This document shows, piece by piece, positions 3-14,853 of a stretch of DNA of 33,939 nucleotides. Each line of letters starts with the position of its first letter. Positions within the stretch are counted from its first letter, which is position 1. Source of the stretch: Chlorobiaceae bacterium (GTDB lineage: Bacteria; Bacteroidota; Chlorobiia; Chlorobiales; Chlorobiaceae); NCBI GenBank assembly GCA_013334925.1, contig JAAXWP010000031.1:1-33939 (forward strand). Reading direction: 5' to 3'. The translations under genes were made by a program, and so were the position numbers. The notes beneath the pieces were generated by a model. It saw nothing but the letters and a program-made list of their open reading frames with translations. It was not told where the DNA came from and did no database searches.

Positions 3-1427
3 AGGTATTTCACGGTCATGAGGTGCAATCATTGCGAAGAGCCTCCCTGCGTCGATATCTGCCCTGTCGAGGCATTGCACAGACGCGATGATGGCATCGT
101 CGATTTCGATGCCCGCCGCTGTATCGGTTGCAAGGCCTGCGGTCAGGCATGCCCGTACGGTGCGCTGTATATCGATCCGGAGACTAAAACCTCGGCGAAG
201 TGCAATTACTGCGCACACCGTAAGGAGGTTGGCCTGAAGCCGGCCTGTGTCGCCATCTGTCCACAGCAGGCTATCGTGTCCGGTGACCTCGATGATCCGT
301 CGAGTGCCGTCGCTGCCCTGGTTGCAACCGAACAGACCATGGTTCGAAAATCAGAAAAGGGGACGAAACCGAATCTGTTCTATATCAACGGTGACGGGGC
401 CTCCCTTGATCCGCTCCAGGCGCCGCCGGCACAGGCCTATCACTGGAGTACCCAGTCGAGAGGCGTCGGCCATTTCGCCAAATACAACCTCGATGGCGAA
501 ATGTCCCACCATGGTGCACCGGCACCCCAGCCACCGCAGGCGATCAAAGGCTCCGCGACCTCTGCGCGCCGTGTTTATGACGCACCTTCGAAAGGGTCGG
601 TCTGGGGATGGGAAGTTCCTGCCTATGTCTGGGCAAAAGCCGTTTCAGCCGGCTCGTTCCTGATGCTTTTCACCCTGTCCGCGCTTTTGGGCCTCTCAGT
701 TCCCGATTCACTGCAATGGGCTGCCTGGGGAATCTCCCTGCTCTTCCTCTCGCTGACCGGGGGATTGCTGGTCAAGGACCTCGACCGTCCCGATCGCTTC
801 GTTTCCGTCATGCTCCGCCCGCAGTTCAGCTCCTGGCTCGTCAAGGGCGGTTATACGATCACCGGGTACGGAGCGCTGCTTGCGCTCTGGGGCGCGGGCA
901 AATTCCTGGGCATTCAGCCTGTGGAAGCACTCGGTCTCTGGGGTGGAGCACTTCTTGCCCTTGTGACGGCTATCTATACGGCCTTCCTGTTCGGATCGGC
1001 CAAGGGACGCGATTTCTGGCAGAGTCCACTGCTCTCGCTGCACATGCTGCTGAACTCGATGATTGCAGGCGGCTCTGCCGTTGCCGTTCTCGGTTTTGTC
1101 ACCGGAATGGATGGAGCAGTTTCAGGTGCTGTCAGGTTGCTTCTCGCGGTGAGCTTCGCATTGCACCTCGTGGTGATGGGGCTCGAGCTGTATGGCAAAC
1201 ACCCCTCGCTGTCATCTGAGAGGGCCGCTGAGATCATCAGGCATGGAGCCCTCAAACAGCAGTTCTGGACCGGCAGTGTCGTCATCGGTAACCTTCTTCC
1301 GCTTCTTGCCGCGATCGTTTCGCCAGAACCGGCACTTCTCGCTGTCGCTGCCCTGCTGGGCCTCGCCGGCGTCTTCTATACCGAAAAGGTGTGGGTCCTT
1401 GCCCCGCAGTCCGTTCCGTTAAGCTAA
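3..1427 (+). CDS. Fused iron-sulfur/NrfD membrane subunit of a SoeABC/PSRLC3-like molybdoenzyme (5' partial)
   Basis: This is the electron-transfer and membrane-anchor part of a complex iron-sulfur molybdoenzyme, expected to pass electrons from the neighbouring Mo subunit to the quinone pool. Ferredoxin-type cysteine clusters are visible at nt 24-70 (CNHCEEPPC..CP), 120-165 (CIGCKACGQACP) and 201-265 (CNYC..CVAICP). A linker follows, then about eight hydrophobic segments from nt 606 to 1410, as in NrfD/PsrC. The frame is open back to the window edge and the first cysteine quartet normally found upstream is absent, so the ATG at 18 is probably internal and the gene starts outside the window. 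B and C subunits are usually separate genes; here they are one polypeptide, as I recall for green sulfur bacterial PSRLC3. It lies 21 nt upstream of the catalytic subunit gene and is probably cotranscribed. Sulfite as substrate is inferred from the context. Confidence 0.85.
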   Translation, partial: RYFTVMRCNHCEEPPCVDICPVEALHRRDDGIVDFDARRCIGCKACGQACPYGALYIDPETKTSAKCNYCAHRKEVGLKPACVAICPQQAIVSGDLDDPSSAVAALVATEQTMVRKSEKGTKPNLFYINGDGASLDPLQAPPAQAYHWSTQSRGVGHFAKYNLDGEMSHHGAPAPQPPQAIKGSATSARRVYDAPSKGSVWGWEVPAYVWAKAVSAGSFLMLFTLSALLGLSVPDSLQWAAWGISLLFLSLTGGLLVKDLDRPDRFVSVMLRPQFSSWLVKGGYTITGYGALLALWGAGKFLGIQPVEALGLWGGALLALVTAIYTAFLFGSAKGRDFWQSPLLSLHMLLNSMIAGGSAVAVLGFVTGMDGAVSGAVRLLLAVSFALHLVVMGLELYGKHPSLSSERAAEIIRHGALKQQFWTGSVVIGNLLPLLAAIVSPEPALLAVAALLGLAGVFYTEKVWVLAPQSVPLS

Positions 1428-1448
1428 CCGAGCAATATCGTTACGCAT

Positions 1449-4307
1449 ATGAGCTACCAGCATAAACCATCTGTCATAGAGACCGTCGCCGAAAAACTGA
1501 AGATCATTCCCGACCTTCACGGGAGCGAAAGCCAGGGGAACGGCGGACAAAGCACGACACAGACAGCCTGTCCTCCTCCGGAGAAGTGGGACCACTGGGT
1601 CGAACTCGATTCGAAGAGCTGGCCTGTCCGCAAAGAGAAAGCCTACATGCTCGTTCCGACGGCATGTTTCAACTGCGAAGCCGGGTGCGGCCTCCTTGCC
1701 TATGTCGACAAGGAGACCATGACCATGCGCAAGCTGGTTGGCAACCCTTACCATCCTGCCAGCCGTGGGCGCAACTGCGCCAAAGGGCCTGCCACGCTCA
1801 ACCAGGTCGAGGACCAGGATCGTGTGCTCTACCCGATGAAGCGGGTCGGTGCCCGAGGAGCTGGACAGTGGGAAAGGGTCTCCTGGGACAGCGTGCTCGA
1901 CGATATCGCTTCACGGATGCGCAAGGCTATCAGTGAGGGGCGCAACAACGAGATCTCCTACCACGTTGGTCGTCCAGGTCATGAAGGGTTCATGGAGTGG
2001 GTGCTCAGGGCCTGGAACGTCGACGGCCACAACAGCCACACCAACATCTGCTCTTCAGGCGCAAGGTTCGGCTATGCGATCTGGCAGGTCTTCGACCGCC
2101 CTTCGCCCGACCACGCCAATGCAAAGTTCATCCTGCTCATCAGCGCACATCTCGAGTCCGGGCACTATTTCAATCCGCATGCCCAGCGAATCATCGAGGC
2201 ACGCATGAAGGGCGCCAAACTCGCCGTTCTCGATCCGAGGCTTTCGAACACGGCCAGCATGTCCGACTACTGGATGCCGAGCTATCCCGGCACCGAACCG
2301 GCAGTGCTCCTTGCGATGGCCAAGGTGATCATCGACGAAGGCCTTTACAACCGTGAATACCTTGAGAACTGGGTCAACTGGCAGGCTTACCTGCAGGCCG
2401 AGTATCCCGGAACGCCGGTGCTGTTCGAAAACTTTATCGAGGCGCTGAAAAAGGAGTATGCGGCGTATACGCCTGAACATGCAGAAAAGGAGAGCGGCGT
2501 ACCTGCGGCTACCATCATCGAGGTTGCCCGCAAGATCGGCGAAGCGGGGACACAGTTCTCCACCCATGTCTGGCGCAGCGCGAGCAGTGCGAACCTCGGC
2601 GGGTGGCAGGTTTCCCGTACCCTGCACTTCCTGAACGTCCTGACCGGCAGCGTCGGTACGGTCGGAGGTACCGCTCCGAGCGCCTGGAACAAGTTCAAGC
2701 CGCATGTCCATGCCGAGCCGAAGCCCCAGACCTACTGGAACGAGCTGCATCTGCCGAACGAGTATCCGCTCGCCCACTTCGAGATGAGCTTCCTCCTGCC
2801 GCATTTCCTCAAGGAGGGGCGAGGCAAGCTCGATGTCTATTTTACCAGGGTGTTCAACCCGGTCTGGACCTATCCGGACGGTTTCTCCTGGATCGAGGCG
2901 CTCGAAGACGAATCGAAGATCGGCCTCCATGCAGCGCTCACGCCGACCTGGAGCGAAACGGCCTACTTCGCCGACTACGTGCTTCCGATGGGCCACTCTC
3001 CGGAGCGTCACGATATCATCAGCTACGAGACCCATGCCGGCAAATGGATCGCTTTCCGCCAGCCGGTGCTTCGCGTGGCCAAAAAGAAGATGGGTGAAAA
3101 GATCGACTACACCTGGCAGGCCAATGTCGGTGAGGTATGGGAAGAGGACGAGTTCTGGATCGAACTGACCTGGCGCATCGATCCGGACGGCAGCATGGGC
3201 ATCAGGCAGTATTGCGAGTCGCCCTACCGTCCCGGTCAGAAGATCACGATCGACGAGTATTACCAGTACATCTTCGAGCGGGTACCGAAGCTTCCGGAGG
3301 CTGCCGCTGCCGAGGGCCTGAATCCGCTGGAATACATGCAGAAGTATGGAGCGTTCGAAGTCGAAAGCAAAGTCTACGACGTCCATGAGAAATCGATTCC
3401 TGCCGGTGATCTCGACGGCTCGTCCGCCGATCCTGCTACCGGTCTGCTGAAGAAGAACGGCAAGGCTGTCGGGGTCGAAGTGAAGGGCAAGGCGTGCACC
3501 GGTTTCCCGACTCCGTCGAAGAAGCAGGAGTTCTACTCCCAGACCATGGTCGACTGGAAGTGGCCCGAGTACACCAAGCCTGGCTACATCAAGAGCCATA
3601 TCCACCAGGATACCATGGACCACAAGAAGGGCGAGTTCGTGCTGGTTCCGACCTTCCGTCTTCCGGTGCTGATTCACTCCCGATCCGGTAACGCCAAATG
3701 GCTTGCCGAGATCGCCAACCGCAATCCGGTCTGGATCAGCGCCTCCGATGCCGCTTCGCTTGGGATCAAAAATGGTGACCTGATCAGGGTGAACACCGAG
3801 ATCGGTTATTTCATCAACAGGGCATGGGTCACCGAAGGTATCCGCCCTGGAGTCGTAGCCTGCTCGCACCATATCGGCCGCTGGCGCCGCGAACAGGATC
3901 CCGACTGCAACCGCTGGTCGACCAACAAGGTCAACATCTCGCGTGAAGGCAAGGGCAAGTGGAAGATGCGCGTGGAAGAGAGCATCACGCCGTTCGAAAG
4001 CGGAGATCCGGATACCTCAAGGATTTTCTGGTCGGATGGCGGCGTGCATCAGAATATCACCTTCCCGGTTCATCCCGATCCGATCAGCGGCATGCACTGC
4101 TGGCACCAGAAGGTCCGGGTTGAAAAGGCGCATGATGGGGACCAGTACGGCGACGTTTTTGTCGATACCGATCGTTCGTTCGCCGTGTACAAGGAGTGGC
4201 TCGCCATGACCAGGCCCGCACCCGGACCGGGCGGCTTGCGTCGTCCACTCTGGCTGAACCGCCCGTTCAGACCGGATGAGTCTACCTTCTATATCGGGAA
4301 AGAGTGA
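1449..4307 (+). CDS. soeA: Molybdopterin oxidoreductase catalytic subunit, SoeA/PSRLC3 type (probable sulfite dehydrogenase)
   Basis: This is a 952-aa catalytic subunit of the DMSO-reductase superfamily. The N-terminal [4Fe-4S] site is C73-x2-C76-x3-C80-x29-C110. A Mo-bisMGD fold follows, with a possible Mo ligand C201 in TNICSSG, and the C-terminal molybdopterin-dinucleotide-binding barrel covers roughly residues 730-900. The N-terminus (MSYQHKPSVIETV) has no twin-arginine signal. The enzyme should therefore face the cytoplasm, as SoeABC of Allochromatium does and unlike periplasmic polysulfide or thiosulfate reductases. Cytoplasmic sulfite oxidation to sulfate is the favoured role, because an anion permease of the TauE/SafE family and a DsrE2 protein follow. 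Other substrates of the family (polysulfide, tetrathionate) cannot be excluded from sequence alone. The start ATG has no strong Shine-Dalgarno sequence, but it follows the upstream gene by only 21 nt. Confidence 0.82.
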   Translation: MSYQHKPSVIETVAEKLKIIPDLHGSESQGNGGQSTTQTACPPPEKWDHWVELDSKSWPVRKEKAYMLVPTACFNCEAGCGLLAYVDKETMTMRKLVGNPYHPASRGRNCAKGPATLNQVEDQDRVLYPMKRVGARGAGQWERVSWDSVLDDIASRMRKAISEGRNNEISYHVGRPGHEGFMEWVLRAWNVDGHNSHTNICSSGARFGYAIWQVFDRPSPDHANAKFILLISAHLESGHYFNPHAQRIIEARMKGAKLAVLDPRLSNTASMSDYWMPSYPGTEPAVLLAMAKVIIDEGLYNREYLENWVNWQAYLQAEYPGTPVLFENFIEALKKEYAAYTPEHAEKESGVPAATIIEVARKIGEAGTQFSTHVWRSASSANLGGWQVSRTLHFLNVLTGSVGTVGGTAPSAWNKFKPHVHAEPKPQTYWNELHLPNEYPLAHFEMSFLLPHFLKEGRGKLDVYFTRVFNPVWTYPDGFSWIEALEDESKIGLHAALTPTWSETAYFADYVLPMGHSPERHDIISYETHAGKWIAFRQPVLRVAKKKMGEKIDYTWQANVGEVWEEDEFWIELTWRIDPDGSMGIRQYCESPYRPGQKITIDEYYQYIFERVPKLPEAAAAEGLNPLEYMQKYGAFEVESKVYDVHEKSIPAGDLDGSSADPATGLLKKNGKAVGVEVKGKACTGFPTPSKKQEFYSQTMVDWKWPEYTKPGYIKSHIHQDTMDHKKGEFVLVPTFRLPVLIHSRSGNAKWLAEIANRNPVWISASDAASLGIKNGDLIRVNTEIGYFINRAWVTEGIRPGVVACSHHIGRWRREQDPDCNRWSTNKVNISREGKGKWKMRVEESITPFESGDPDTSRIFWSDGGVHQNITFPVHPDPISGMHCWHQKVRVEKAHDGDQYGDVFVDTDRSFAVYKEWLAMTRPAPGPGGLRRPLWLNRPFRPDESTFYIGKE

Positions 4308-4337: not shown

Positions 4338-5297
4338 ATGAAAATTTCAGAATTGGGCCGCCGGTTCATGCCGGCGGCGGCTGCCGCAACGGGACTCGTC
4401 CTGATGCTGCTGCAGGCGGCGCCGCTTTTTGCCGCAGTTCCGGAGAGTGGAGCGGGTATGGCCTGGTGGGGATGGGTACTTATCCTGTTTCTGTTTTCGT
4501 TTCTGCTCGGAATTGTGGCTGTACTTGCCGGCGTGGGAGGCGGCGTGCTCTTCGTGCCCATTGTCAGCAGTTTTTTTCCGTTTCACATCGACTACGTTCG
4601 CGGTGCCGGCCTCCTGGTCGCTCTTGCAGGGGCGCTATCGGCCGGACCTCCGCTTCTGAGAAAAGGGATGGCTGATCTGAAGCTCGGGCTTCCCATGGCG
4701 CTGGTCGGTTCGGTAAGTTCGATCGCCGGAGCTATGGTCGGGCTCGCCATGCCGGCAAAAAACGTCCAGCTCCTGCTTGGCATCGTGATCCTGGGGATTA
4801 CTGCAGTCATGCTCATGTCAGGAAAATCGGGTTACCCTGAAGTCAGGGAGTCTGATCCGCTTTCAAGGCTTCTCGGGATTTCCGGCAGTTACTACGAGGA
4901 GTTCGGCAAGCACGAAGTGTCCTGGAAGGTGCATCGGACGCCCATCGGATTGCTCCTGTTTTTTTTCATCGGCTTCATCGGAGGTATGTTCGGCCTCGGG
5001 GCCGGATTCGCCAACGTTCCGGTTTTCAACCTGCTCATGGGAGTCCCCCTGAAGGTCGCCGTGGCTACCAGCGGGCTCGTGCTTTCGATCAACGGTTCAG
5101 CTGCAGCCTGGGTCTACATGTTCAATGGAGCCGTACTTCCGATTATCGCGGTGCCCGCTGTTGGCGGCATGATGCTCGGCTCGAAGATCGGGGCGAAACT
5201 GCTGCCGAAGGTCAATACCAGGACAATCCGGATGATCGTTATCACGATCCTGGCGCTTTCGGGATGTCGTTCACTGCTTAAAGGATTCGGAATATGA
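4338..5297 (+). CDS. TauE/SafE-family anion (sulfite/sulfonate) permease
   Basis: This is a 319-aa polytopic membrane protein of the TauE/SafE (DUF81) family. Two family repeats are visible: GIVAVLAGVGGGVLFVPIV near residues 55-75 and GGMFGLGAGFANVPVFNLL near 215-235, each a glycine-rich helix followed by a VP motif. About eight to nine hydrophobic segments are present and the first may act as a signal anchor. Family members export sulfite, sulfoacetate or related anions. Its place 30 nt behind the molybdoenzyme catalytic subunit suggests it moves sulfite or sulfate across the inner membrane. It overlaps the next gene by four bases (ATGA at 5294-5297), which indicates translational coupling. 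Direction and exact substrate are inferred. Confidence 0.88.
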   Translation: MKISELGRRFMPAAAAATGLVLMLLQAAPLFAAVPESGAGMAWWGWVLILFLFSFLLGIVAVLAGVGGGVLFVPIVSSFFPFHIDYVRGAGLLVALAGALSAGPPLLRKGMADLKLGLPMALVGSVSSIAGAMVGLAMPAKNVQLLLGIVILGITAVMLMSGKSGYPEVRESDPLSRLLGISGSYYEEFGKHEVSWKVHRTPIGLLLFFFIGFIGGMFGLGAGFANVPVFNLLMGVPLKVAVATSGLVLSINGSAAAWVYMFNGAVLPIIAVPAVGGMMLGSKIGAKLLPKVNTRTIRMIVITILALSGCRSLLKGFGI

Positions 5298-5791: not shown

Positions 5792-6301
5792 ATGTCCGAT
5801 ACCAAGAAGCTCGCTATCATTGCGTCCAAGGGTACCCTCGACTGGGCTTACCCGCCCTTCATTCTGGCTTCCACTGCTGCGGCAATGGATATGGAGGCCG
5901 TTGTATTCTTCACCTTTTATGGTCTTCCACTTCTCAAAAAAGAGATCGATGCCAAGGTGACTCCGGTAGGAAATCCTGCCATGCCCATGAAGATGCCGTT
6001 CGGCAGCAAGGAGTTCCAGTCGATCAACTGGCAGATTCCGAACCTCATTTCCGGTAACGTGCCTGGCTTTGAAACGCTGGCGACCTCTCTCATGAAGGAG
6101 ACGTTCAAGAAAAAAGGTGTGGCTACGGTCGAGTTGCTCAGGGAGATGTGTCTTGAAAGCGGCGTGAAGTTCATCGCCTGCCAGATGACCATGGAGGTCT
6201 TCGGTTTCCACAAGAACGAGTTCATCGACGGCGTCGATTACGGCGGTGCGGCCACCTTCCTCGAGTATGCTGCAGACGCGAATATCTCGCTCTTCATCTG
6301 A
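5792..6301 (+). CDS. DsrE2-like sulfur-transfer protein
   Basis: This is a 169-aa protein of the DsrE/DsrF-like superfamily, closest by eye to the DsrE2 subgroup found with TusA and rhodanese in sulfur oxidisers. The C-terminal half carries ELLREMCLESGVKFIACQMTMEVFG, written here as two adjacent motifs: C120 in EMCLESG and C130 in FIACQMTMEVFG. C130 is the position that carries persulfide in related proteins. An N-terminal hydrophobic segment (about residues 15-45, PPFILASTAAAMDMEAVVFF) fits the reported membrane association of DsrE2 proteins. It follows the molybdoenzyme/permease genes on the same strand with a 63-nt gap. A role in handling cytoplasmic sulfane sulfur or sulfite is inferred. 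The conserved family name is secure; the partner is not. Confidence 0.8.
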   Translation: MSDTKKLAIIASKGTLDWAYPPFILASTAAAMDMEAVVFFTFYGLPLLKKEIDAKVTPVGNPAMPMKMPFGSKEFQSINWQIPNLISGNVPGFETLATSLMKETFKKKGVATVELLREMCLESGVKFIACQMTMEVFGFHKNEFIDGVDYGGAATFLEYAADANISLFI

Positions 6302-6332: not shown

Positions 6333-7130
6333 ATGAAAATAGCGGTCAGTGGTAAGGGAGGAGTCGGCAAAACGACAGTCAGCTCCCTGATCGTACGGGA
6401 ACTCGTGCATCGTGGCCGGCGTGTGCTGGCCATCGACGCTGATCCTAATGGCGGGTTGGCGGAAGCACTGGGATATGACCGGCATCGCCTTGGTCCGATT
6501 GTTCCTCTGATCGAGCGACGCTCGCTGATTGAAGAACGGACCGGAGCAGCACCGGGTCAGTCTGGCGGTTATTTTGTCCTGAATCCGCAAGTTGACGATT
6601 TTATGGCCCGATTTTCCATCGAGGTGAACGGTGTGCCGGTCATGGTCATGGGGGGGCTCAAAGAAGCGCTGACCGGGTGCTACTGCTCCGAAAACGCAGT
6701 TCTGCGTTCTTTTCTGCGACATCTTATGGTAGAACGCGACGAATGGGTTCTTCTCGACATGGAGGCCGGGTTCGAACACCTGACTCGGGGAACCGCTCAG
6801 TCGGTTGATCTTTTGCTGATTGTCGTGGAGCCGGGGGAGCGATCGATCAACACGGCAAAAAAACTGAATGACCTGGCCAATCTTGCCGGCATTCCTGAAA
6901 CCTATTTCATTGCCAACAAGCTTCATGACGATCGGGAGTTCGCCCTTGTGTCGGAGCGGCTGGACAAATCACGTATCCTTCTCAGGATGCCATACGATCA
7001 CGAGGCTGTCCAGGCTGATCTTGCCGGCGAAGTTCCTTATGCATCATGCCCTAAGCTTGTCGGACTTGTCGCAGGCCTGGTCGATCAACTTGAGTCCATT
7101 GTCGGCCAGGGAGAAAAAAAACGACATTAA
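6333..7130 (+). CDS. cooC: CooC-type nickel-insertion ATPase for carbon monoxide dehydrogenase
   Basis: This is a 265-aa SIMIBI-class P-loop ATPase (MinD/CooC family). The deviant Walker A motif GKGGVGKTT is at residues 7-15, and ADP/ATP-binding DADPNGGLAEALG follows. A CxC pair (C116-Y-C118) sits at the position of the nickel-binding C112-x-C114 of Carboxydothermus CooC1. The start at 6333 is chosen because AGGAGG lies at 6321-6326; the frame is open further upstream, but that would overlap the previous gene and shift the P-loop away from the N-terminus. In the family it delivers Ni to the C-cluster of CooS. It is the first gene of the CooS-related set, separated from the transporter genes by a 305-nt regulatory-looking gap. 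Retention of the CxC pair is notable because the CooS here lacks one C-cluster ligand. Confidence 0.88.
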   Translation: MKIAVSGKGGVGKTTVSSLIVRELVHRGRRVLAIDADPNGGLAEALGYDRHRLGPIVPLIERRSLIEERTGAAPGQSGGYFVLNPQVDDFMARFSIEVNGVPVMVMGGLKEALTGCYCSENAVLRSFLRHLMVERDEWVLLDMEAGFEHLTRGTAQSVDLLLIVVEPGERSINTAKKLNDLANLAGIPETYFIANKLHDDREFALVSERLDKSRILLRMPYDHEAVQADLAGEVPYASCPKLVGLVAGLVDQLESIVGQGEKKRH

Positions 7131-7435: not shown

Positions 7436-8671
7436 ATGAGCCAGGAAAACAGTTCGGTATCACGCAGGGATTTCCTGAAAAAGTCGGCATTAGGGGTTGG
7501 CGCTGTTCTTGGCGGCAGCTCGCTGTTCATGGGTTGTTCAAAAAGCGCTGACCACGGAGGCTCGGCATCGATCAATGCCGGGAGCAGAAAAGTGACCAGT
7601 TGCTATCTGCCGATCACTGATGCGACGCCAATCATTCTCGCCCACGAAATGGGCTTTTACAAAGAACTTGGTATCGAGTCCGAGCGACCGGTTCTTATCA
7701 GAGGATGGGCGCCGATGGCAGAAGCCTTCATGGCTGGCCGTTTCAATCTGACGCACCTGCTGGCGCCGATCCCTATTTACATGCGTTACAGCAAGGGCTT
7801 TCCGGTAAAGATTGTCGCCTGGGATCATATCAACGGTTCGGCCATTACCGTCGGCAAGGATAGCGGGATCAGGTCGTATGCCGATCTTGGGGGTAAGCAG
7901 ATCGCTATTCCCTACTGGTACTCTATGCACAACATCATTCTTCAGATGATTGCCCGCGAGCACGGAATCGAACCGGTGATACAGAGCAAAACTGCGCCCC
8001 TCAGCAACAAGCAGGTCAACCTTTTCGTTATGGCTCCGCCGGATATGCCGACGGCCATCGCATCAAACGCTATCGACGGGTACGTCGTTGCCGAGCCGTT
8101 CAATGCTGCTGGAGAGGTTCTGGCAAACGGTCGTATCGTGCGCTTTACCGGAGATATCTGGAAAAATCACCCCTGCTGCGTCGCGGTGATGAATGAAAAG
8201 GATCTGGCCGACCAGGCATGGTCGCACAAGGTGATTCAGGCTCTGGTTAAGGCTGAGCTCTGGGCGTTGAACAATGTCGAGCAGGCGGCACATATTCTGT
8301 CCAAGGACGGAGCGAAATATCTTCCGCTTCCTGAAAAGATCGTGCAGAGAGCCATGATGAAGTATGATCTCGAGACGTACGGCCCATCGGGTACCGGCGC
8401 GATTAAGCATCCGGAATGGAATACCCGAAGGATTGCTTACGAACCGTATCAGTTTGAATCGGCAACCCGGAAAATCGTGGAAATGATGAAGCTGACCAGG
8501 ATGGATGGTGATACCTCGTTCCTGAACGCGCTGGATCCGGGTAAGGTGCATTCGGAACTCATGTACACTTCGGGGGTGGAAGCGGCAGCAACAGCTCTTG
8601 GCGGTCTGGCGCAGTTCGTCGGCGTCGACCCGAAAGCGCCTACAGTCAGGGAAGAGATCATCAGCATCTGA
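7436..8671 (+). CDS. NrtA/CmpA/SsuA-like substrate-binding lipoprotein of an ABC transporter
   Basis: This is a 411-aa periplasmic binding protein. The start at 7436 follows AAGGAGG at 7424-7430. The N-terminus contains a twin-arginine motif (R10-R11 in SRRDFLKKS), a hydrophobic stretch and then a lipobox-like FMGC with C34. It may therefore be exported folded by Tat and anchored as a lipoprotein. The mature part (CYLPITDATPIILAHEMGFYKELGI, split here as CYLPITDATPII and HEMGFYKELGI; GWAPMAEAFMAGRFNLTHLLAP) resembles the nitrate/bicarbonate-binding NrtA/CmpA branch more than classical sulfonate binders. The ligand cannot be read from sequence; a small oxyanion or carbon-nitrogen compound is plausible. 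Permease and two ATPase genes follow. No nitrate reductase or RuBisCO gene is in the window. Confidence 0.82.
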   Translation: MSQENSSVSRRDFLKKSALGVGAVLGGSSLFMGCSKSADHGGSASINAGSRKVTSCYLPITDATPIILAHEMGFYKELGIESERPVLIRGWAPMAEAFMAGRFNLTHLLAPIPIYMRYSKGFPVKIVAWDHINGSAITVGKDSGIRSYADLGGKQIAIPYWYSMHNIILQMIAREHGIEPVIQSKTAPLSNKQVNLFVMAPPDMPTAIASNAIDGYVVAEPFNAAGEVLANGRIVRFTGDIWKNHPCCVAVMNEKDLADQAWSHKVIQALVKAELWALNNVEQAAHILSKDGAKYLPLPEKIVQRAMMKYDLETYGPSGTGAIKHPEWNTRRIAYEPYQFESATRKIVEMMKLTRMDGDTSFLNALDPGKVHSELMYTSGVEAAATALGGLAQFVGVDPKAPTVREEIISI

Positions 8672-8789
8672 GATTTTTCTACCGTCATTTCCTTCGGATC
8701 GCAGGTATTCCGGCTGGCAGGTTCCCTGCCGGCTGAGAGTCCTGTGTCCGTCAGAAGCCATTTTGGTAACCAGCTATCGGAAATTGTCT

Positions 8790-9581
8790 ATGTCAAATCA
8801 AAACGGCGGCAAAGCCGCAGGGTTTCAGGGGAAGCTTGTGGACAGGGCGTTCAACGTGCTTGGAGTGCTTCTGTTTCTTGCAGTATGGCAGTCTGCGAGT
8901 ATGCTCAACCTGTTCGGTCCGGACTTCAGTGCATCGTTTTCACCGGTCGCCGCATTTTCGGCACTGGGTGAAATGATCAGTAGCGGTGAATTGCTGCATC
9001 ACTCCATTCCGAGTATCCGAAGGGTACTGACCAGCCTTTTTCTGGCCATTATCGTCGCCTTGCCCATCGGAGTGCTGGTCGGATATTTCAAGCGGGTTGA
9101 GCAGCTCACCTACGTGGTGTTCCAGTTCATGCGCATGATCTCGCCGCTTGCCTGGATGCCCATTGCCATAATCATTTTCGGGGTGGGTGATGTTTCGGTG
9201 ACGTTCCTGCTTTGGCTGGTCGCCATCTGGCCACTCATCCTGAACACCTCCCACGGAGCCGGAAGAGTCAGTCCGCTCTGGGTGAACATGTCAAGGACCA
9301 TGGGCGCCGGTGACTCAGGTATTCTGCGCAAGGTGATCATTCCTGCTGCTGTGCCGGATATGCTGACGGGGCTGAGGCTTGCAGTCGGGGTAAGCTGGAT
9401 CATTCTTGTTCCTGCCGAGATGCTCGGCGTTCCTGACGGACTTGGTTACTTCATTCTCGATACCAGGGACCGATTCAGATATGATCAGCTTATGGCCACC
9501 ATCATGGTTATCGGTGCTATCGGTTATCTGCTCGACTCGGGCAACAGGTGGTTGATCAGGAAATTTGCATGGAAAATATGA
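8790..9581 (+). CDS. ABC transporter permease, NrtB/SsuC/TauC family
   Basis: This is a 263-aa inner-membrane permease of the nitrate/sulfonate/taurine class. Start 8790 (MSNQNGGKAAG) is chosen because it immediately precedes the amphipathic N-terminus and first membrane helix; the frame is open upstream into the binding-protein 3' end, but that part has no membrane character. About six hydrophobic segments are visible. The EAA-type cytoplasmic loop that contacts the ATPases lies around residues 165-190 (MSRTMGAGDSGILRKVIIPAAVPDMLTGL, key residues G-A-G-D and I-P-A-A-P). Only one permease gene is present, so the transporter probably has a permease homodimer even though two different ATPases follow. 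The next gene begins 11 nt after the stop. Confidence 0.86.
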   Translation: MSNQNGGKAAGFQGKLVDRAFNVLGVLLFLAVWQSASMLNLFGPDFSASFSPVAAFSALGEMISSGELLHHSIPSIRRVLTSLFLAIIVALPIGVLVGYFKRVEQLTYVVFQFMRMISPLAWMPIAIIIFGVGDVSVTFLLWLVAIWPLILNTSHGAGRVSPLWVNMSRTMGAGDSGILRKVIIPAAVPDMLTGLRLAVGVSWIILVPAEMLGVPDGLGYFILDTRDRFRYDQLMATIMVIGAIGYLLDSGNRWLIRKFAWKI

Positions 9582-9592
9582 GGGGAGGCAAC

Positions 9593-10405
9593 ATGAGTGA
9601 CAACAAGGAGATTCTCATCAGCGTACGGGATGTTTCAAAAAGCTATCCCAAGGATCGGGGAGCGGTTCAGGTGCTCCGAAAATGCACCTTTGATGTCATG
9701 AAAAACGAGTTCCTGGTCATTGTCGGGCCGACCGGATGCGGCAAGTCCACACTCCTGAAACTGATCGCAGGACTTGAGTTTCCTACGAGCGGCACCATTT
9801 TGCTGGAAGGTGAACCAGTGAAAGGGCCAGGTGCCGACCGTGGCATGATTTTCCAGGAGTACGCCCTGCTGCCATGGCGGACGGTGCTGAAGAATGTGGA
9901 GCTCGGCTTTGAGTTTCAGGGGCAGGATATGGATGAACGACGACGACAGGCCGAAGCGATGCGTTACCTGGAAATGGTCGGCCTTGGGTATGCTGCAAAC
10001 AAGCATCCCGTTGAACTCTCGGGAGGTATGAAACGCAGGGCATCTCTGGCCATGATCCTGGCTGTCAGGCCGAAAATCCTGTTGATGGATGGTGCATTCA
10101 ACGCTCTGGACTCGAAAACCAAAATGACCATGCATCAGGAGATTACCAACATCTGGGAAGTTGAGAAAAATACGGTTGTATTTGTGACCTCCGATCTGGA
10201 TGAGGCGGTAAAGCTTGCCGACCGGATTATCGTACTGGGCAGGAACGGCGAGATCGATGCTGTTCTGCGGAACGAACTTCCCCGCCCGAGGCTCGGCAGT
10301 TCGGCGCGGGATATCGATTTCCACCATCGCTTCGTGGCTTTCAGGGAGATGGTCATGAACGTGATCAAGAAAGATGCCGGAATGCGCACCTGTCCGGTTG
10401 CCTGA
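9593..10405 (+). CDS. ABC transporter ATP-binding protein with degenerate catalytic site
   Basis: This is a 270-aa ATPase of the NrtD/SsuB/TauB family. The start at 9593 follows a GGGGAGG ribosome-binding site. Walker A is intact (GPTGCGKST, K51), as are the Q-loop (FQEYALLPW) and signature (LSGGM). The Walker B glutamate is replaced by glycine (LLMDGAFNALD, G167) and the H-loop histidine by serine (FVTSDLDEA, S200). In canonical family members these positions are E and H and are required for ATP hydrolysis. The partner ATPase encoded next keeps both. The pair therefore probably forms a heterodimer with one degenerate site. The protein should still bind ATP. A local sequencing error is unlikely to explain two separate changes. 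Confidence 0.88.
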   Translation: MSDNKEILISVRDVSKSYPKDRGAVQVLRKCTFDVMKNEFLVIVGPTGCGKSTLLKLIAGLEFPTSGTILLEGEPVKGPGADRGMIFQEYALLPWRTVLKNVELGFEFQGQDMDERRRQAEAMRYLEMVGLGYAANKHPVELSGGMKRRASLAMILAVRPKILLMDGAFNALDSKTKMTMHQEITNIWEVEKNTVVFVTSDLDEAVKLADRIIVLGRNGEIDAVLRNELPRPRLGSSARDIDFHHRFVAFREMVMNVIKKDAGMRTCPVA

Positions 10406-10440
10406 CGATTCAGGCGGGTAACGAAAAAAACGGGAACATC

Positions 10441-11250
10441 ATGAACGATATGGCCAAAACAGGAAAACTCCTGCTGGAGTTAAAAGATGTCTGTAAAACC
10501 TTCAGGAAGGACGGGGCTGAATTCAGGGTGCTCGAAGGGGTCAATCTCCGGATTGACGAAGGCGAATTTGTCTGTATTCTGGGGCCAACCGGCTGCGGCA
10601 AATCCGTGACCCTGCAGATCGTTGCCGGTCTGCTCGATCAATCATCCGGCAGCGTGATCCTTGATGGAAAAGAGGAGCGTGGCCCTGGCCCGCACAAAGG
10701 AATGGTTTTTCAGGAGTATGCTTTGCTGCCCTGGCGGAATGTGATCGAAAATGTGGAGATCGGTCTCGAACTGAAAGGGGTGTCGAAAAAAGAGCGGCGC
10801 AGAATCGCTATGGAGTATCTCGAGATTGTCGGGCTGAAAGGTTCGGAACGAAGTATGGTGCATGAGATCTCGGGTGGAATGCGTCAGCGGGCCGCCATTG
10901 CGCGGGCTCTTGCAAACCATCCGAAGATCCTGCTCATGGATGAGCCGTTTGAGGCACTTGATGCCCTGACCAAGGAGGAGATGCAGATTCAGATTCTCAA
11001 GGCATGGGAAAAAACGAAGACGACAATCTTCTTCGTGACGCATGACGTCGACGAGGCGATTTTCCTTTCCGACAAAATCTGTGTCATGGATATCAATCCC
11101 GGAAGGGTGAAGAAGATTATCGATAATCGTCTGCCCAGGCCAAGACATGAAAATGTATGCCGAACAGACAAGGCGTTCGGAGAGATGCGGGATCAGATCA
11201 TCCAGCTCTATTCTTCATTGAAGGACGATGAGCTCGATCTGGTTTTTTAG
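10441..11250 (+). CDS. ABC transporter ATP-binding protein, NrtD/SsuB family (canonical)
   Basis: This is a 269-aa nucleotide-binding domain with Walker A GPTGCGKS, Q-loop FQEYALLPW, signature ISGGMRQR, Walker B LLMDEPFEALD (E168) and H-loop FFVTHDVDEA (H201), so all catalytic residues are present. It is clearly a paralogue of the preceding ATPase, matching it along the whole length, which points to tandem duplication followed by loss of catalysis in the first copy. The ATG at 10441 and the one at 10450 are both possible starts. It energises uptake through the single upstream permease. The diheme cytochrome gene follows after 43 nt on the same strand. Confidence 0.9.
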   Translation: MNDMAKTGKLLLELKDVCKTFRKDGAEFRVLEGVNLRIDEGEFVCILGPTGCGKSVTLQIVAGLLDQSSGSVILDGKEERGPGPHKGMVFQEYALLPWRNVIENVEIGLELKGVSKKERRRIAMEYLEIVGLKGSERSMVHEISGGMRQRAAIARALANHPKILLMDEPFEALDALTKEEMQIQILKAWEKTKTTIFFVTHDVDEAIFLSDKICVMDINPGRVKKIIDNRLPRPRHENVCRTDKAFGEMRDQIIQLYSSLKDDELDLVF

Positions 11251-11293: not shown

Positions 11294-12061
11294 ATGGAAA
11301 ACAAGAGACCTTCGCTAAGTCGACCGGCCCGGGCAGGAATCGCATCTGTTATCCTGTTTTCCGGGCTTATAACAGGGTGCAAGGGAACACCCTCTGAAAA
11401 AACGGTGGTTTCGAGCGTGAATACGCCTTCCGCTGAAACATTGAAAAAAGACCGGCCGACGAATGACCGTGCCGTCGATGGTCTTCGTCTCTACCTCGGA
11501 TACTGTTTTATCTGTCATGGCCAGGCCGGATGGGGTGACGGTCCTTATGCGAAGACTCTTTCGGTCAGGCCGGCAAACCTTGCCGATCCCGATTATTTCG
11601 CCGGAAAGAGTGACCGTGAGCTTCATGACGTGATCAGCAGGGGTGGTGTCTCTCACGGTAAATCGATCCATATGCGCCCACTGGGCATGCAGCTCAGCTA
11701 CGACCAGATCGAGGACATCGTAGCGTACATCAGGGTGCTTAACAAGGGTGTCCCCGTCGAACTGGAGAAAAAAACCGGCTTGACGGCCACGGACATCTAT
11801 GCGATGTCCTGCATCATGTGCCATGGTCGGGAGGGTAACGGTGACGGCGAGATCGCCCGCAAACTCGGCATTGTCATCAGGCCGCTGGGTGGTAGTGAGG
11901 TGCAGGCAATGAGCGACGCAGAGCTCAGAAAGATCATCTCCGACGGAATAGACGATCCGGGCCGGCCAGGCGCCCGTTATATGCCCACGTGGCACGAGAG
12001 CCTTACCGGTGCTCAGATCGACGAGCTGGTCAGGTATGTCCGGTCTCTGAAAAGACCATGA
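11294..12061 (+). CDS. Diheme c-type cytochrome, predicted lipoprotein
   Basis: This is a 255-aa extracytoplasmic electron carrier. The N-terminus has a basic start, a hydrophobic stretch (SVILFSGLIT) and a lipobox ending LITGC with C29, so it should be lipid-anchored on the periplasmic side. Two cytochrome c domains of similar layout follow: CFICH at residues 71-75 and CIMCH at 173-177, each followed by a G(N/W)GDG motif and later methionines (MRPLGM, MPTW) that could be axial ligands. It lies between the transporter ATPase and the CooS homologue, 19 nt before cooS. The CooS protein is expected to be cytoplasmic, so direct electron exchange is not obvious. The cytochrome may instead serve the imported compound or a membrane intermediary. 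Confidence 0.87.
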   Translation: MENKRPSLSRPARAGIASVILFSGLITGCKGTPSEKTVVSSVNTPSAETLKKDRPTNDRAVDGLRLYLGYCFICHGQAGWGDGPYAKTLSVRPANLADPDYFAGKSDRELHDVISRGGVSHGKSIHMRPLGMQLSYDQIEDIVAYIRVLNKGVPVELEKKTGLTATDIYAMSCIMCHGREGNGDGEIARKLGIVIRPLGGSEVQAMSDAELRKIISDGIDDPGRPGARYMPTWHESLTGAQIDELVRYVRSLKRP

Positions 12062-12080: not shown

Positions 12081-14198
12081 ATGTCGGAAGAAAAAAAGTA
12101 TCGGTACGAAGACGAACTGACCAGTTCGCGGCAGGCTCCGGACTACCGGCCTGGCATGTCACTCACCGAACGCATCAGACTTGTCCACAAGCTCAACTAC
12201 AGCAAGGATGAGGTCATCAGGCATACTGCCAACAAAGCGGTGGCCGAGATGGTCGGGCATATGGACAAAGCAGGTATCGGGAACACCTTTGACCGTTTCA
12301 TGCAGCAACATCCCCAGTGCGGGTTCGGTCTGACCGGCGCCTGTTGCGCCTTCTGTTCCTATGGCCCTTGCCGGGTCAACGAGAAACATCCCTTCTCCAT
12401 CTGCGGCAAGGATGTCGACCTGATTGTCGCAGGGAATGCTCTTCGAAGACTTGCTGCCGGCATGTCTGCCCATGGAGCCCATGCCCGCGAGGTCTTCATC
12501 GCGTTGAAAGCGGCGGGCGATGGCTCCGCTCCTATTCCTGTCAAGTTCCCTGAAAAGGCCCTGGCGGTTGCCAGGACGCTTGGGCTCAACACCGAAGCGA
12601 AGCGGGTTGAAGAGATATGCGTCGAAATTGCCGACCGTTTCATCGACGATCTGCAGCGCTCACTGCCGAAACAACACGATACGCTCTTTTCTCTTGCTCC
12701 GAAAGAGCGTTCCGCTCTCTGGGAAAAGCTCGGTATCATCCCGATCAGCGCATACCACGAGTGCTTTGAGGTGAACAACCTTACCAGTCATGGTACCGAT
12801 TCAGATTTCGAAAGCCATATGCAGGCCTTCCTGCGTTCGGTTCTGGCATATGCCTATACTACCGTGGTATCGACTTCTCTGGCCACCGACATTGTCTATG
12901 GGCTTCCCCGACGTTCGAAGCTGAACGTCAACCTTGGCAGCATCAGGAAGGATAACTGCATCAATATCGGAATCAACGGTCACGCACCCATGGTCGCCTT
13001 TGCCATCTGCGATATCGTCGGCACACCGAAGGTTATGGAAAAGGTGAAGGCCGCTGGTGCAGAGGAGATCAAACTCTATGGCATGTGCTGTACCGGCGGT
13101 GAGTTTGTCGAGCGAGACCTCGGCATACCCCTCGTGGCCATGGCCTCTTCCGCCGAAATGGCCGTGGCGACCGGCGCTTTCGAGGCGATCGTGGTGGACC
13201 AGCAGGACGTTCTGCCCGGTATGATGCCCGTCGCGCGCCGTTTCCACACCAAGGTGATCACCACATCTCCATCTGGTCGAAAAGAGGGGGCGATCGTGCT
13301 CGAGCTGGATTACTACCTCAGGAATCTCGACCGGATTTATGATCTGGCAGAACAGATCCTCGACATTGCCATCGACAACTACCGCAACCGCGACCCGGAA
13401 AAGGTTCATGTTCCTGACATCAGAGCCAAGGTCGAGTTAGGCTTCAGTGTCGAGGAGGTTGCCCGTCTTCTGGAGGGATCGATGCCTGAAAAAAAGATTC
13501 ACGGTCTTGCCCGTCTTCTGAAGGAGGGAAAGATCCGGGGGATTGCCAATTTTGGCTCCTGCGGAAATATTCGGGGTGCGGTTTTCGAGCGCAACCAGGT
13601 CATCATTGCGCGACAGCTCATCAAGAACGATGTGCTGGTCACTGCGCACGGGTGCTCCGGCATGGGTCTTCTTTTCGCCGGCCTGGCTCATCCGGATGCC
13701 TCGAAACTCTGTGGGCCACGGCTTCGCGAAGTGGTTGAGCATCTCGATATTCCTCCCGTGCTGCATGTCGGGGCCTGTACCGACAGTACCAGGGCGAGCC
13801 AGATCATGGCCTATACGGCAAACGCGGCAGGGTTGGCAAACCCGTCAATGCCTTTCGCCATGGTGGCTGCCGACCCGGCTGCAGAAAAAACCATGGGGGC
13901 GCGGTATGCATTTATACTGAATGGCATCGAAACTTACTCCTGCGTACAGGACAATACCATTGCCTCCGATCGCTTTCTCGATTATGTCGGTAACCGGTTG
14001 CGATCGATGGTTGGTGCTGCGATGAACTGGAATCCCGATCCCTATCGCACTTCCGAAGATATCCTGCGGATGCTCGACAGGAAGCGTCAGGCCAACGGAT
14101 GGCCGGTATGGGATTACACCATCGGTACGAAGGAGGAGATCGAGGATCAGATTCCGGACACGATTGATATGGGCAGCCAGTTCTGCGGAAATCGTTGA
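12081..14198 (+). CDS. cooS: CooS-family carbon monoxide dehydrogenase homologue with substituted C-cluster ligand
   Basis: This is a 705-aa homologue of the anaerobic Ni-Fe carbon monoxide dehydrogenase subunit, preceded by AGGAG. Aligned by eye to Carboxydothermus CODH-II: D-cluster cysteines C80 and C88 and B-cluster cysteines C89, C92, C97 and C108 are all present. C-cluster positions are H301 (for H261), C337 (C295), D376 (C333), C494 (C446), C525 (C476) and C566 (C526), so one cysteine ligand is replaced by aspartate. The active-site lysine is kept (K603 for K563). Of the histidine tunnel, H131 and H134 are kept, but H99 and H102 become E137 and I140. The N-terminus is about 40 residues longer than CODH-II. 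Enzymes lacking one canonical C-cluster cysteine, such as CooS-V, hold an Fe/S/O hybrid cluster and do not turn over CO. Real CO oxidation is therefore doubtful here. Confidence 0.9.
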   Translation: MSEEKKYRYEDELTSSRQAPDYRPGMSLTERIRLVHKLNYSKDEVIRHTANKAVAEMVGHMDKAGIGNTFDRFMQQHPQCGFGLTGACCAFCSYGPCRVNEKHPFSICGKDVDLIVAGNALRRLAAGMSAHGAHAREVFIALKAAGDGSAPIPVKFPEKALAVARTLGLNTEAKRVEEICVEIADRFIDDLQRSLPKQHDTLFSLAPKERSALWEKLGIIPISAYHECFEVNNLTSHGTDSDFESHMQAFLRSVLAYAYTTVVSTSLATDIVYGLPRRSKLNVNLGSIRKDNCINIGINGHAPMVAFAICDIVGTPKVMEKVKAAGAEEIKLYGMCCTGGEFVERDLGIPLVAMASSAEMAVATGAFEAIVVDQQDVLPGMMPVARRFHTKVITTSPSGRKEGAIVLELDYYLRNLDRIYDLAEQILDIAIDNYRNRDPEKVHVPDIRAKVELGFSVEEVARLLEGSMPEKKIHGLARLLKEGKIRGIANFGSCGNIRGAVFERNQVIIARQLIKNDVLVTAHGCSGMGLLFAGLAHPDASKLCGPRLREVVEHLDIPPVLHVGACTDSTRASQIMAYTANAAGLANPSMPFAMVAADPAAEKTMGARYAFILNGIETYSCVQDNTIASDRFLDYVGNRLRSMVGAAMNWNPDPYRTSEDILRMLDRKRQANGWPVWDYTIGTKEEIEDQIPDTIDMGSQFCGNR

Positions 14199-14208
14199 AC
14201 CAAACATT

Positions 14209-14853
14209 ATGAATATGATTGCACCTGGAGAAGATGGTGCCAGATCCCATTGGGAGAGCATCTACAATGCTTCATCGTGTGAACGCCTGAGCTGGTACCA
14301 GGAGAACCCGGAGGATTCGCTGCGATTGATACAGGAGTCGGGTGTTTTGCCTGATGCGGCTGTCATCGATGCCGGAGGCGGAGCGTCCAGCCTGGCCTCA
14401 TGCCTGCTGACACTCGGTTTTCAGGATGTGTCAGTGCTCGATTTTTCCGAAGAGGCGATGGCACAGGCCCGCAAACGTATGGATACCCGGGCTGAGCAGG
14501 TCTCATGGATCAGGGGCGACATCCGGTCGTTCCGGACTGACAGGTCATTCATGTTGTGGCATGACCGCGCTGTATTCCATTTCATGGCTGGTGAGGAAGA
14601 CCGCAGACGCTATCTTGATACCCTTGACGCCTGTCTTGATCCAGACGGGCTTGCCATTATCGGTACGTTCGCACTGACCGGACCCTCGAAATGCAGTCGA
14701 CTCAACGTTGAACAGTATGATGCCGAGCGCATTGCCGGAGTCTTCGCTCCTCGATTCGAAATACTCTCTACCATGGGCTCTACCCATCATACGCCATCGG
14801 GCGCCAGCCAGGATTTTATGTTTTTTACCTTTCGTCGTAAACGTAAAAGTTGA
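14209..14853 (+). CDS. Class I SAM-dependent methyltransferase
   Basis: This is a 214-aa Rossmann-fold methyltransferase. Motif I, which binds SAM, is visible as VIDAGGGASSLA near residues 46-57. An acidic residue follows in motif II (VLDFSEEAM), and motif IV is close to MLWHDRAVFHFM. The start codon is uncertain: ATGs at 14209 and 14215 follow the cooS stop directly, while 14164 would overlap cooS. It is probably the last gene of the CooS operon. The substrate cannot be read from the sequence; related proteins include thiopurine/thiol and small-molecule methyltransferases. Methylation of a product or toxic by-product of the CooS/transporter pathway is possible but speculative. Confidence 0.78.
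   Translation: MNMIAPGEDGARSHWESIYNASSCERLSWYQENPEDSLRLIQESGVLPDAAVIDAGGGASSLASCLLTLGFQDVSVLDFSEEAMAQARKRMDTRAEQVSWIRGDIRSFRTDRSFMLWHDRAVFHFMAGEEDRRRYLDTLDACLDPDGLAIIGTFALTGPSKCSRLNVEQYDAERIAGVFAPRFEILSTMGSTHHTPSGASQDFMFFTFRRKRKS

Follow-up and report, generated by a model that had tools for sequence, protein, structure and literature searches.

The closest described relatives of the protein studied here are the clade B CODH-like proteins. Their signature is an aspartate or glutamate at the second C-cluster cysteine in groups B-1 to B-3, accompanied by a type II D-cluster, retained acid-base residues and genes for a NitT/TauT ABC transporter; group B-4 retains the cysteine (Inoue et al. 2019, PMC6344411). 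No clade B member has been characterized (PMC13056359). These proteins are widespread and occur in bacteria of the gut, the rumen, the mouth and sediments; the literature consulted takes them for putative CO enzymes or nickel users, or describes transporter-associated proteins with a function that is non-canonical or degenerated. An operon of coral-associated Prosthecochloris that combines cooS, cooC, a cytochrome c gene and NitT/TauT genes has been interpreted as serving CO oxidation, and the description of it does not mention a missing C-cluster ligand (PMC10158934). Another CODH scaffold that lacks one C-cluster cysteine is CooS-V of C. hydrogenoformans (clade D-1, PDB 7b7q). It carries glutamate in place of Cys295, and the equivalent of CODH-II Cys333 is retained as Cys338, one of the residues that bind the hybrid cluster (PMC9311411). 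Hybrid cluster proteins (HCPs) keep this cysteine too, Cys261 of Mm HCP corresponding to CODH-II Cys333 (PMC10502027).

The stretch of DNA that we analyzed, hereafter the window, comprises 33,939 nucleotides from a member of the Chlorobiaceae and contains a cooS gene within a conserved operon (Table 1). In phmmer comparisons the segment VVDQQDVLP of the window CooS aligns on VDYQCIMP/VDVQCIMP of solved CODHs, and a multiple alignment including CODH-II (reference sequence identical to PDB 5fle) places D376 at C333. Both agree with the earlier note that this position is occupied by aspartate and not by cysteine. The substitution is already known, as it is the published clade B signature. Alignment with CODH-II also bears out the note's claim that the other five C-cluster ligands (H301, C337, C494, C525 and C566, equivalent to H261, C295, C446, C476 and C526), the D-cluster cysteines C80 and C88, the B-cluster cysteines C89, C92, C97 and C108, and the catalytic lysine K603 (K563) are kept; the second acid-base residue, H131 (H93), is kept as well. 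The D-cluster motif, C80-X7-C88-C89, is of type II (C-X7-13-CC). Fold, B and D clusters and five of six ligands are thus shared with CODH-II and DvCODH, but the C-cluster ligand set of a working Ni,Fe-CODH is incomplete. Against TIGR01702, the NCBIfam equivalog for the anaerobic CODH catalytic subunit, the protein scores 440.1 bits across the whole profile, below the curated cut-off of 478. In D. vulgaris, Cys340 binds one cubane iron and neither the nickel nor the pendant iron (PMC6168284); judged by position, it is the same residue as CODH-II Cys333. Our literature search found no direct study of Cys333 or its Rhodospirillum equivalent. The predicted CooS model (pLDDT 88.5, pTM 0.91) superposes with TM-scores, by target length, of 0.94–0.95 on working CODHs and 0.93 on CooS-V 7b7q, values so similar that fold alone does not discriminate between them.

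Table 1. Features of the cooS operon and its upstream neighbours in the window.
Feature	Position	Strand	Basis
Fer4/NrfD and molybdopterin oxidoreductase subunits, polysulfide/thiosulfate-reductase-like complex (upstream neighbours)	18..4307	+	
TauE/SafE family permease (upstream neighbour)	4338..5297	+	
DsrE2 sulfur carrier (upstream neighbour)	5792..6301	+	NCBIfam NF047629, 218.3 bits, above cut-off of 210
cooC, nickel-insertion ATPase; P-loop GKGGVGKT, metal motif C116-Y-C118 (6678-6686)	6333..7130	+	solved relative 3kje
NitT/TauT-type substrate-binding protein, Tat signal SRRDFLKK	7436..8671	+	Pfam NMT1_2, NCBIfam TAT_signal_seq
ABC permease (BPD_transp_1)	8790..9581	+	start chosen by comparison with L029
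ABC ATPase 1, likely start MSDNKE	9593..10405	+	
ABC ATPase 2	10441..11250	+	
Dihaem c-type cytochrome, probable lipoprotein; CFICH 11504-11518, CIMCH 11810-11824	11294..12061	+	
cooS, clade B CODH-like protein, 705 aa	12081..14198	+	ORF with ATG start, phmmer, alignment, trees
Tyr257 codon (= CODH-II Asp219, invariant Asp in E/F CODHs compared)	12849..12851	+	alignment comparison
Asp376 codon (= CODH-II Cys333, cubane-iron ligand)	13206..13208	+	phmmer and multiple alignment; ligand role from PMC6168284
Ala607 codon (= CODH-II Ile567, invariant Ile in E/F CODHs compared)	13899..13901	+	alignment comparison
Class I SAM methyltransferase	14209..14853	+	directly 3' of cooS in 7 type-1 loci

The changes are not confined to the ligand. 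Relative to E/F CODHs, Asp219 (CODH-II numbering) is replaced by Tyr or Phe and Ile567 by Ala (Gln in B-4) throughout clade B, with further changes at positions 94, 474, 525 and 564. We take Asp219 and Ile567 to flank the CODH-II substrate site, a role that rests on conservation and general knowledge; our literature search found no studies of Asp219 or Ile567 variants, and the PDB includes the CODH-II variants I567A/L/T, K563A and C295D. Both residues are replaced in clades C and D too. As B-4 proteins are already altered at 219, 564 and 567 yet retain all six ligands, the pocket changed before the ligand did.

Trees that included working E/F CODHs, clades C and D, CooS-V, the R. flavefaciens CODH and B-4, the last assigned by residue pattern, recovered the window lineage, the other Asp proteins and B-4 as a single clade B (support 100/100). 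The window CooS falls in a Chlorobiaceae-only lineage whose sister group comprises all the remaining clade B proteins with Asp (99/96), with B-4 outside, and this arrangement persists after the ligand and pocket columns are masked. Grouping B-4 with either Asp lineage was rejected (AU p 0.031 and 0.0086) and the Cys333 column needs two changes on the tree, one of them to Glu in a single locus (L054); an aspartate that arose twice is therefore an unneeded assumption. With its tree position, D376, type II D-cluster, H131 and K603, and ABC genes (7436-11250), the window CooS has every feature by which Inoue et al. (2019) describe clade B. It shares the residue signature and NitT/TauT genes with groups B-1 to B-3, represented by the R. 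flavefaciens CODH, but is about 40% identical to them, has Tyr instead of Phe at 219, Thr instead of Gly at 564 and His/Ala at 474/525, lacks a His-rich end, and is encoded with its own two-ATPase importer, CooC and a dihaem cytochrome c. With B-4 it has in common Tyr219, Thr564, mostly Gly94 and an adjacent ABC importer; unlike the window, B-4 has Cys333, Gln567 and cysK directly upstream, and no CooC in the loci examined.

Aspartate occupies the Cys333 column in the window and in the aligned Chlorobiaceae relatives of both subtypes, and among the best 80 relatives in GTDB genomes L054, with Glu, is the sole exception. This conservation rules out chance or a sequencing error. Pairwise dN/dS between the window cooS and six Chlorobiaceae orthologues is 0.03–0.05 (about 0.04); the gene is under strong purifying selection and is not a pseudogene. 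The earlier note was accordingly right to read the substitution as selective change in a phototroph, and not as decay. The source genome (2.73 Mb) encodes a single CODH-like protein and an HCP. Among 98 Chlorobiales genomes, 11 have a cooS of the window type (type 1; 83–90% identity) and seven have another type (40–42%), which groups with Geobacteraceae; the two types never co-occur in one genome. In the Chlorobaculum parvum MAG HyVt-633 (G003), cooS appears broken in two close to the 3' end, as a frameshift would cause (L024 429-2636, the same locus as L012).

The order CooC, Tat-type binding protein, permease, two ATPases, dihaem cytochrome c and CooS is shared by the Chlorobiaceae loci L026–L030 and the complete genome G002. 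All of these except L027 have the methyltransferase as the next gene; the cytochrome gene lies immediately 5' of cooS in eight loci. As far as its published description allows a comparison, the coral Prosthecochloris operon has the same gene content (PMC10158934). The best solved relative of the window CooC is C. hydrogenoformans CooC (3kje, E=1.5e-44), with the CYC motif aligned, and this motif is kept in all CooC-bearing clade B loci. Within the 98 Chlorobiales genomes, cooC occurs in 8 of the 11 with type-1 cooS and in none of the other 87. No gene for CooF, hydrogenase or ACS was found in the operon. NitT/TauT ABC genes adjoin cooS in most clade B loci, but the importer of the window lineage is distant from most of them: its binding protein, whose nearest solved relatives are 3un6, NrtA, NrtC and CmpC, scores about 70–140 bits against theirs and about 760–830 within the lineage. 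The upstream DsrE2, TauE and molybdopterin/NrfD genes are present in the window, L026, L028 and L030 and absent in L029 and L170; DsrE2 was not detected in the upstream region of L027.

Apart from the ABC genes, which came first, clustering of the genes that neighbour clade B cooS returned MetY, CysK, CysE, cysteine desulfurase, a ThiF-like protein and a family 2 encapsulin. Sulfur assimilation genes (CysK, MetY/B, CysE, cysteine desulfurase or encapsulin) lie within 8 kb of cooS in 36 of 78 clade B loci outside the window lineage (8/8 for B-4, 28/70 for the other Asp proteins) and in 0 of 19 E/F CODH loci. For these counts the B-4 and control loci were drawn from a single phylum sample, and loci of the same lineage cannot be treated as independent. 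In all eight B-4 loci cysK is immediately 5' of cooS. One locus (L033) reads metY, cysK, cysE, cooS, ABC genes and a cystathionine synthase family gene, with others interspersed, and a Chlorobiaceae locus of the other type (L035) reads cysK, encapsulin, encapsulin-cargo cysteine desulfurase, cooS and ABC genes. In the latter, a MAG, the family 2 encapsulin shell and its cargo desulfurase are immediately 5' of cooS (L035:6545-9977); encapsulin-like genes are present in L089 and L101 as well. A sacrificial sulfur transferase of LarE type, a family of nickel-pincer cofactor biosynthesis, adjoins the cooS-ABC genes in L044, L052 (14496-15320), L076 and L097.

In Clostridium luticellarii (L067) a SAM riboswitch at 3581-3681 precedes cooS-ABC by ~210 nt with no intervening gene, and in L164 another heads metB/Y-metY-cysK-cooS-ABC. 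In L171 and L172 a T-box heads cysE-cysK-cooS; its specifier, GAA-UGC, is read by us as Cys. Two kinds of RNA element, signalling a shortage of methionine or cysteine, thus control cooS in different lineages. The SAM riboswitch model had no match in the E/F control loci. In the window lineage, 0 of 10 loci have a cys/met gene or riboswitch near cooS, and none was found near the window operon itself. We came across no link to sulfur genes or riboswitches in Inoue et al. (2019), a 2026 context study or the encapsulin paper. Katayama 2024 records cysK next to cooS in Megasphaera, as a minor arrangement with no function given; as far as we could find, that clade B gene neighbours and riboswitches point to sulfur is unreported.

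Taken together, these observations suggest that clade B CooS is probably an importer-coupled, anaerobic sulfur-acquisition enzyme. The O2-dependent TauD/SsuD route is closed in anaerobes, and another enzyme is therefore needed; clade B CooS would be the anaerobic counterpart of Tau/Ssu sulfur scavenging. The NitT/TauT importer would deliver a small sulfur-bearing anion or organosulfur compound, and the D and B clusters would charge a C-cluster-like site in which Asp376 replaces cysteine on one cubane iron, giving a Ni-Fe-S cluster with one carboxylate ligand. We expect this cluster to contain nickel because the operon supplies CooC with its nickel motif. The loss of Asp219 and Ile567 in all of clade B would leave an altered, probably roomier site that does not metabolize CO, and reductive cleavage of the substrate may release free sulfide for CysK or MetY. 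A sulfur-bearing substrate appears most likely because of the clade-wide gene context and riboswitches; the R. rubrum CODH reportedly reduces COS.

For the window CooS itself, we put at about even the chance that it is a clade B enzyme with an Asp-ligated Ni-Fe-S site, fed by an importer, acting on something other than CO, and most likely on a sulfur compound. Because no cys or met genes adjoin cooS in its lineage, a part for it in the clade's sulfur role is something we infer, as with the nickel content, substrate and reaction. The DsrE2, TauE and polysulfide-reductase-like genes upstream, and the position of the protein as the sole CODH of its genome, speak in favour of such a role; the absence of those upstream genes in L029 and L170, the distant importer and controls from one phylum speak against it. 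Green sulfur bacteria normally have sulfide; this availability and the distinct importer make a dissimilatory or detoxifying use of sulfur possible in the window lineage. Cys and met genes could also accompany cooS since Fe-S proteins need cysteine. Only tentatively do we extend the proposal to clade B as a whole as O2-independent, importer-fed enzymes that liberate sulfur and do not act on CO, turned on at low SAM or cysteine and splitting S–O or C–S bonds at an Asp-ligated Ni-Fe-S cluster, with the Chlorobiaceae as an early branch that retained the nickel insertase.

The earlier note had likened the protein to CooS-V, an enzyme with an Fe/S/O hybrid cluster that reacts slowly with hydroxylamine; on this reading the window CooS might also act in nitrosative or redox stress. 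In both proteins a carboxylate replaces one C-cluster cysteine, the replacement of Asp219 and Ile567 extends to clades C and D, and the model superposes well on 7b7q. However, ordinary CODHs superpose as well, and the residue differs: CooS-V and clade D-1 change Cys295 to Glu and keep Cys333, HCPs likewise have Glu and Cys at these sites, and the window CooS has C337 and D376. CooS-V also has Tyr in place of the acid-base His and a different D-cluster type, whereas the equivalents of His93 and Lys563 are kept here, CooC is present and the genome already encodes an HCP. Alignment and clade trees, the check proposed in that note, thus uphold a deviant CODH scaffold but place it in clade B, not clade D; orthology to CooS-V is ruled out by ligand pattern and trees, and we consider even a functional resemblance unlikely. 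The CXC motif of the operon-encoded CooC favours a nickel cluster over one of the CooS-V type. Near clade D lies another ligand variant, the second of two CODH-like proteins encoded by the Sporobacter termitidis MAG bin60 (L064:13344-15242), in which Asp replaces the equivalent of Cys295 (GSMDTG) and the acid-base His is Tyr.

Inoue et al. (2019) proposed that the enzyme obtains its nickel, free or in a complex, through the ABC importer. CooC in the window operon, the extensions rich in His that other clade B proteins carry (L067, L171, L172) and a binding protein nearest to 3un6, which those authors called metal-binding, are in line with this. The binding protein resembles NrtA and CmpC too, which are components for nitrate and bicarbonate, and nickel handling leaves the SAM riboswitch and T-box control and the cysK, metY, cysE and encapsulin-desulfurase neighbours unexplained; we regard it as improbable. 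A working CODH whose cubane tolerates an Asp ligand, passing electrons from CO to ferredoxin or a cytochrome, would be consistent with CooC, the intact B and D motifs, the retained His and Lys and the CooS annotation, and a phototroph could use the CO2 derived from CO. Yet the protein lacks one ligand cysteine as well as two residues of the pocket that do not vary among the E/F CODHs compared, its operon has no CooF, hydrogenase or ACS genes, CO needs no importer, and relatives are under sulfur-type regulation. This is quite improbable, and the note's suggestion of a deviant enzyme holds so far, in that the window CooS is unlikely to be an ordinary CODH. A role in sensing redox state or a metabolite, with no turnover of a substrate, has been put forward for other non-CO clades (PMC13056359) but is very improbable here given the retained acid-base residues, five ligands and cluster-assembly factor; the importer and adjoining pathway genes suit an enzyme better.

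The preferred reading, a sulfur-acquisition role under SAM or cysteine control, offers a concrete pathway that makes clade B function testable, and the comparison with B-4 supplies the order of change, pocket first and ligand later. In green sulfur bacteria and in gut metagenomes, a cooS of this type should not be taken as a sign that CO is oxidized. The aspartate is real and belongs to a known substitution, the CooS-V reading does not fit, and the function of the clade can now be framed as a question about sulfur.
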